Shown: piece by piece, positions 29,364-29,740 of the stretch
How positions within the stretch are numbered: position 1 is the stretch's first letter
Layout: the number at the start of each line of letters is the position of its first letter
Source of the DNA: Minisyncoccota bacterium
Lineage (GTDB): Bacteria > Patescibacteriota > Minisyncoccia > Phycocordibacterales > UBA1006
DNA length: 42,971 bases
Direction: 5' to 3'
Assembly (NCBI GenBank): GCA_028697455.1
Contig: JAQVEZ010000003.1
Location: 1 to 42,971, forward strand
The notes under the pieces: model-generated
What the model was told of the DNA's origin: nothing
What the model saw: only the letters and a program-made list of their open reading frames with translations
Database searches by the model: none
Made by a program: the position numbers and the translations under genes

Positions 29364-29506
29364 TACAAAAATTTAACTAAGTGAATAATGTTCAAACTAC
29401 TACACAAAAAAATGAACAAATATCTTAGCCCCTTCCCCTTGTAATGATTTGATACCCTTAATAATAAACCGAAAAGAAATTTAGTCAAATCTCTTTAAAA
29501 TATCTG

Positions 29507-29580
29507 TCCACCCACTTGGATTCGAACCAAGGACCGCAGAGGTATAAGCTCTGTGCTCTAACCAGCTGAGCTATGGGTGG
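29507..29580 (-). tRNA. tRNA-Ile (anticodon TAT)
   Basis: CCACCCA/TGGGTGG acceptor, CAGAG-CTTATAC-CTCTG anticodon arm, CTTGG-TTCGAAT-CCAAG T arm, discriminator A. Confidence 0.92.
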
Positions 29581-29626
29581 GCACATATTTCAAATTTTTC
29601 TTTGTGGAAATAAGTCTCGCACTCAC

Positions 29627-29644
29627 CTCCGCCGTTTGGCGGAG
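29627..29644. repeat. Hairpin motif CTCCGCC-GTTT-GGCGGAG
   Basis: 7-bp perfect inverted repeat of the TCCGCC..GGCGGA family. Confidence 0.8.
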
Positions 29645-29687
29645 AGTTATACGCGGACTATAATTTCTATTCACCTCACTACAAACG

Positions 29688-29740
29688 ATAAGCTCTGTGC
29701 TCTCTCACCATCCGCCAGCCGGCGGAAAGCTGTGGGTGGA
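29688..29740 (-). pseudogene. tRNA-Ile 5'-half copy with D-loop replaced by a TCCGCC..GGCGGA hairpin
   Basis: 29729..29740 matches 29569..29580 at 11/12; 29688..29703 matches 29544..29559 at 16/16; hairpin 29712..29727 lies between. Confidence 0.8.

Follow-up and report, generated by a model that had tools for sequence, protein, structure and literature searches.

Classical integrative elements use tRNA genes as integration sites and restore them. Smaller elements with exact target requirements have also been described. IS608 inserts 3' of a tetranucleotide via guide pairing (PMC5934647), and among the left cleavage motifs that an IS605 survey names, TTAT is the commonest (PMC9956272). In halophilic archaea, small repeats insert into the palindromes of other small elements, the PATEs (PMC3119063). 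REP/BIME sequences, mobilised by RAYT, are dispersed intergenic hairpins, and archaeal tRNA introns, as presented where Fujishima 2010 is cited in PMC10714607, are inserts of the anticodon region that are mobile between loci. We describe here a locus in which a half-copy of tRNA-Ile(UAU) is probably the relic of a nested insertion, left when a small element (X) carrying an intact tRNA-Ile(UAU) split an older tRNA-Ile at the anticodon.

The locus lies in the window, by which we mean the whole stretch of 42,971 nucleotides analysed, from the 0.53 Mb assembly of a Minisyncoccota bacterium. A preliminary description had reported on its minus strand a tRNA-Ile(UAU) 5' half, terminating at the anticodon and carrying the palindrome TCCGCC..GGCGGA in its D-arm, and this proved accurate. 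The half reads CCACCCACAGCT-TTCCGCCGGCTGGCGGA-TGGTGAGAGAGCACAGAGCTTAT; compared with the intact tRNA-Ile(UAU), which starts 107 nt past its anticodon end, it agrees at 11 of the first 12 nt and at all of the last 16. None of 200 shuffles of the upstream sequence attained the 5'-half alignment score, 16, and the match is therefore beyond chance. A second, middle 5' half had been overlooked. It is located between the outermost half and the tRNA, reads CCGCGTATAACTC-TCCGCCAAACGGCGGA-GGTGAGTGCGAGACTTAT and is more decayed. No outer 3' half was found within 400 nt downstream.

Features of the tRNA-Ile(UAU) locus in the window (listed from the outermost half inwards)
Feature	Position	Strand	Remarks
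Outermost tRNA-Ile(UAU) 5' half	29688..29739	-	Ends TTAT at anticodon position 36; 11/12 + 16/16 match
Palindrome TCCGCCGGCTGGCGGA	29711..29726	-	D-arm of outermost 5' half; secondary insertion; one of 6 in the genome
Remnant of X left arm (CGTTTGTAGTGAGGTGAATAGAAATTATAGT)	29657..29687	-	Aligns, jointly with the middle half, to the X-left arm of congener G004
Middle tRNA-Ile(UAU) 5' half	29610..29656	-	Ends TTAT; acceptor CCGCGTA; homology to G004
Palindrome TCCGCCAAACGGCGGA (TCCGCC..GGCGGA)	29628..29643	-	D-arm of middle 5' half; same D-arm site as in outermost half
Presumed left-arm remnant of innermost X	29582..29609	-	Presumed from position after TTAT and before the tRNA; complementarity to downstream side weak (z about -1)
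Intact inner tRNA-Ile(UAU)	29506..29580	-	68.6 bits, RF00005; sole intact copy found
Possible X right-arm remnant	29469..29505	-	Weak partial complementarity

Searching 196 genomes of relatives with the window tRNA and its upstream region revealed intact tRNA-Ile(UAU) genes with half copies on their flanks, arranged in one topology: an outer 5' half (..CTTAT), an insert, an inner tRNA-Ile(UAU), the rest of the insert (..ATAT) and an outer 3' half (ACC/ATC..). With other tRNAs masked, a half meeting the anticodon was counted at 23 of 86 tRNA-Ile(UAU) loci from the same order versus 3/58 other tRNAs, and both halves met it at 14 of the 86 versus 0/58. Loci L015, L022, L024, L079, L084, L085 and L123, which are not anticodon-nested but represent a different class of partial copy with repeats of the T-arm, were left out of the 23. 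Recurrence in relatives was the test that the preliminary description had proposed for itself, and these nested loci support its suggestion of a remnant of a tRNA-targeting mobile element. The break point followed TTAT in nearly all nested loci, giving the layout TTAT-insert-A, and the empty outer site is ..CTTATACC... When the insert was deleted in silico and the outer flanks were joined, 11/16 outer copies were called as tRNA-Ile(tat), indicating that in these loci the insert neither adds nor removes a base. The acceptor stems of outer and inner copies differ in L065, L067 and L112 and are identical in L098 and L113. Further clean cases (L226, L240, L261), each with an intact inner copy, came from 85,462 species genomes scanned without conditioning on an intact tRNA. 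In all, tiny bacteria of Parcubacteria type from about twenty families have the nested arrangement, which reaches up to three layers. In an empty-site comparison of two congeners, G044 and G122, the insert was present in one and absent from the other, with unclean borders.

A genome of the window's own genus, G004, contains a perfect three-level doll, in the order outermost 5' half, X, middle 5' half, X, inner tRNA, X, middle 3' half, X, outermost 3' half. Its two inner X arms are identical, and hairpins occupy the D-arm of its outermost 5' half. After removal of the palindrome, the window spacer and middle half aligned to the X arm and tRNA of G004 with a score of 23 (0/5000 shuffles), and the middle-half acceptor CCGCGTA is that of tRNA-Ile(UAU) in another congener, G011, where the gene begins CCGCGTATAGCT. 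On account of this alignment and of the shared acceptor, the window is read as an older, decayed doll, with two successive 5' halves and an intact inner tRNA, whose 3' halves would have been lost. The covariance model of X (R1) gave no match in the window, the X arms there being too decayed, and we infer the membership of the window in the X-nested class from its sequence homology to G004. Taken alone, the window, with its truncated copies and missing 3' half, would fit an ordinary tandem duplication of the tRNA, the copies having decayed neutrally and the D-loop palindrome having been inserted by chance. This explanation is very unlikely when the relatives are considered: their loci contradict it, in particular the 14 with both halves exactly at the anticodon against none for other tRNAs, as do the identity of the G004 X arms at two levels and the homology of the window spacer to the X-left arm of G004.

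The insert corresponds to X, a unit of about 65-70 nt with the order TTAT, stem P1, AGYGAGGA, P2, CCGAGYGA, P1', ATAT; a small hairpin that closes with ATAT comes next. X thus has hairpins near both ends: HP1, deduced from covariation, with an AGYGAGGA / CCGAGYGA internal loop, and HP2, the small hairpin ending ATAT, which was read off the sequences (ATAT..ATAT). Among 16 units, two-sided changes were found in 15/18 pairs. The covariation score was 0.572 versus 0.212 +/- 0.025 for shuffled units (0/500), and sliding gave no more than 0.163. The value of 0.572 is somewhat favourable, since both the choice of units and the definition of the pairs were manual. The ATAT of X is predicted to pair with the left TTAT and with the right ATAT. 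With the covariance model, X was detected in 85/196 genomes of the order (E<=0.01), with a maximum of 24 copies per genome, and in 7/288 genomes of a phylum-wide sample (E<=1e-5), 4 of the 7 being from the same order. Rfam holds no family for X or for the half, and a search of ten loci at E<=1 returned only tRNA and chance matches. The inner tRNA sits within the P2 loop in L063, L065, L067, L112 and L113, and within the HP2 loop in L011, L030, L064, L098 and L226. L098, L106 and L240 have tandem arrays that combine empty and loaded X units, and in genome G053 the empty and the loaded unit are identical. At G053:C20 (L098) and at L240, two or three identical or near-identical units occupy the same TTAT; these runs suggest, from their sequences, repeated recent insertion at one site.

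Away from tRNAs, a simple ORF test placed 18 of 22 inspected X copies between genes, and YTAT stood to the left of 20. The many copies of this kind bear on the possibility that the locus is the remnant of a classical integrative element, moved by a tyrosine recombinase with tRNA-Ile as attachment site. Although the known use and restoration of tRNA genes by such elements would agree with this explanation, the break lies at the anticodon, the whole insert measures only about 100-250 nt, and the intact copy stands in the middle of the insert. No larger relative with an integrase and matching att sites was noticed. We give this explanation a slimmer chance than tandem duplication.

The position of X also raises the question of whether it might be a new bacterial tRNA intron, the outer transcript folding as a tRNA from which X is excised and the outer halves joined. 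The joined halves form a canonical tRNA in the 11/16 loci mentioned above, and the anticodon loop, which X occupies, lies close to where tRNA introns usually occur. Base pairing also links X with both exons, through P1 at the end of the 5' exon and through HP2 on the 3' exon side, and the fold of the L226 transcript encloses one tRNA in another (z -5.1). On the other hand, an intact uninterrupted tRNA-Ile was present in every locus seen, partly owing to how the loci were found, although the unconditioned scan agrees. Outer copies are often broken (L018, L020, L031, L104, L119, L125 and the window), X elsewhere is mostly intergenic, and in the ten loci compared with Rfam no intron family matches and no group I/II or other known self-splicing catalytic core was recognised. 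To our knowledge, no bacterial enzyme for such tRNA splicing has been described. We therefore consider an intron unlikely, and less likely than a mobile element. Slightly more doubtful still is a new intron class holding a complete tRNA, in which one transcript would yield both the inner and the joined outer tRNA-Ile. As far as the account citing Fujishima 2010 in PMC10714607 goes, X resembles the archaeal tRNA introns in its anticodon-region position and its mobility between loci, and differs from them in being bacterial, in having an intact tRNA within the insert and in not needing splicing. A literature search that covered mainly openly available papers found no account, for CPR/Patescibacteria, of introns in tRNA genes or of one tRNA nested in another.

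Independent of X, TCCGCC..GGCGGA is a dispersed palindrome of its own. The window genome has 6 sites (0 in a backwards control): two in the tRNA-Ile halves, two flanking tRNA-Ser(GCT) and two near no recognised tRNA. As a candidate part of X it was rejected, since X occurs without it and it also occurs elsewhere, at tRNA-Ser and at the two non-tRNA sites. Pieces of the outermost-half palindrome TCCGCCGGCTGGCGGA have matches in many relatives. At tRNA-Ile loci, D-arm palindromes were confined to outer copies, and other such palindromes were present in the decayed outer copies of L006, L031, L104 and L125 and in the outermost copy of G004. Thus, of the interpretation given in the preliminary description, the tRNA-targeting mobile remnant stands, whereas the hairpin is no longer its defining part and the half no longer a module of its own. 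The splitting would be done by X, with the half as left exon of the outer gene cut at TTAT and the intact tRNA downstream as the cargo of X. The same description had also considered a tRNA-half-like regulatory RNA, for which we found no support. Folding of the window transcript is indeed better than that of shuffled sequences (z -4.0), which the intact tRNA and the palindromes explain; the halves decay freely, D-arm palindromes vary among copies, and the half-plus-hairpin form as such is not conserved. A functional tRNA-half or tRNA-like RNA is accordingly the least credible of the explanations weighed here.

Partial tRNA copies of two other kinds were noticed. The tRNA-Ser(GCT) gene of the window (26264-26177, minus strand) is flanked by its own pieces (26443-26417 and 25997-25980, minus strand); the upstream one contains GGAGAGTTGGCT, directly followed by the TCCGCC..GGCGGA palindrome, and the downstream one is CGAATTCCACACTCTCCGC. 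Judged by its sequence, this resembles a further dismantled outer tRNA in which the palindrome occupies the same point of the D-arm. In L015, L022, L024, L079, L084, L094 and L123, a different, degenerate type of partial copy lies downstream of tRNA-Ile(UAU), with an inverted T-arm piece GGACTCGAAC and, at a distance of about 100-290 nt from the tRNA, the T-arm 3' end in direct orientation; it possibly reflects a further small element with the T-arm as its target.

Returning to nested insertion by X, the best reading of its class is a non-autonomous, IS200/IS605- or PATE-like single-strand element for which tRNA-Ile is both cargo and target. Such an element would insert 3' of the tetranucleotide TTAT, which is present in the anticodon loop of tRNA-Ile(UAU). 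A loaded X, which holds an intact tRNA-Ile(UAU) within one of its hairpin loops, could enter the resident tRNA-Ile and leave the cell alive, since it supplies a working copy, and rescue of this kind would be the cause of the nesting. Re-insertion of the loaded element into its own cargo copy would then produce Russian dolls, whose outer halves, released from selection, could gain other palindromes in the D-arm and then decay. Movement would proceed as single-stranded DNA, with a Y1-type transposase acting in trans.

Y1_Tnp genes were found in 9/20 genomes, with no tracking of X copy number, and several genomes with 10-14 X copies have none. No X was found beside Y1_Tnp or RAYT-like genes, nor was any transposase tied to X, and for this reason we do not claim membership of IS200/IS605. 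X nevertheless shares with IS608 and other IS200/IS605 elements (PMC5934647) an exact insertion 3' of a fixed tetranucleotide, which is retained in the left flank, with no target duplication, and imperfect hairpins near both ends. It differs from them in having no tnpA, in its tRNA cargo and in the pairing of P1 with the TTAT flank, which is ordinary complementarity forming a plain continuous stem, unlike the guide arrangement of IS608. The PATEs of Haloquadratum (PMC3119063) are, like X, transposase-free, with near-end palindromes, a short left target and no target duplication, and they host other small repeats in their palindromes, as the outer tRNA copies here take TCCGCC..GGCGGA. X is unlike PATEs in that no autonomous parent was found and in that some X carry a tRNA gene and insert into it themselves. 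With REP/BIME, X has in common dispersed intergenic hairpins and the occurrence of RAYT-like Y1 proteins in some X-rich genomes, whereas the precise TTAT target sets it apart and no RAYT gene flanked by X hairpins was seen.

No TilS gene above the curated cut-off was found in 36 genomes, in which weak sub-threshold matches exist; this suggests that tRNA-Ile(UAU) is needed to read AUA. Within the window's genus, tRNA-Ile(UAU) is present in genomes G000, G004 and G011 and was unrecognised in congeners G001-G003 and G005-G010, of which G003 and G010 are 99% complete, so that its distribution may be patchy.

In this interpretation, a tRNA gene is the cargo of the very type of hairpin element that inserts into that same gene, which would explain how an element can land in an essential single-copy gene. 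Within the Candidate Phyla Radiation the loci supply, as a natural series, exact sites in the empty, the filled and the re-filled state. Swaps of the acceptor stem of tRNA-Ile(UAU) between related genomes may be explained in this way, and caution is called for with tRNA annotation in these genomes, which hides split copies. RNA splicing of X, if true, would be categorically new.
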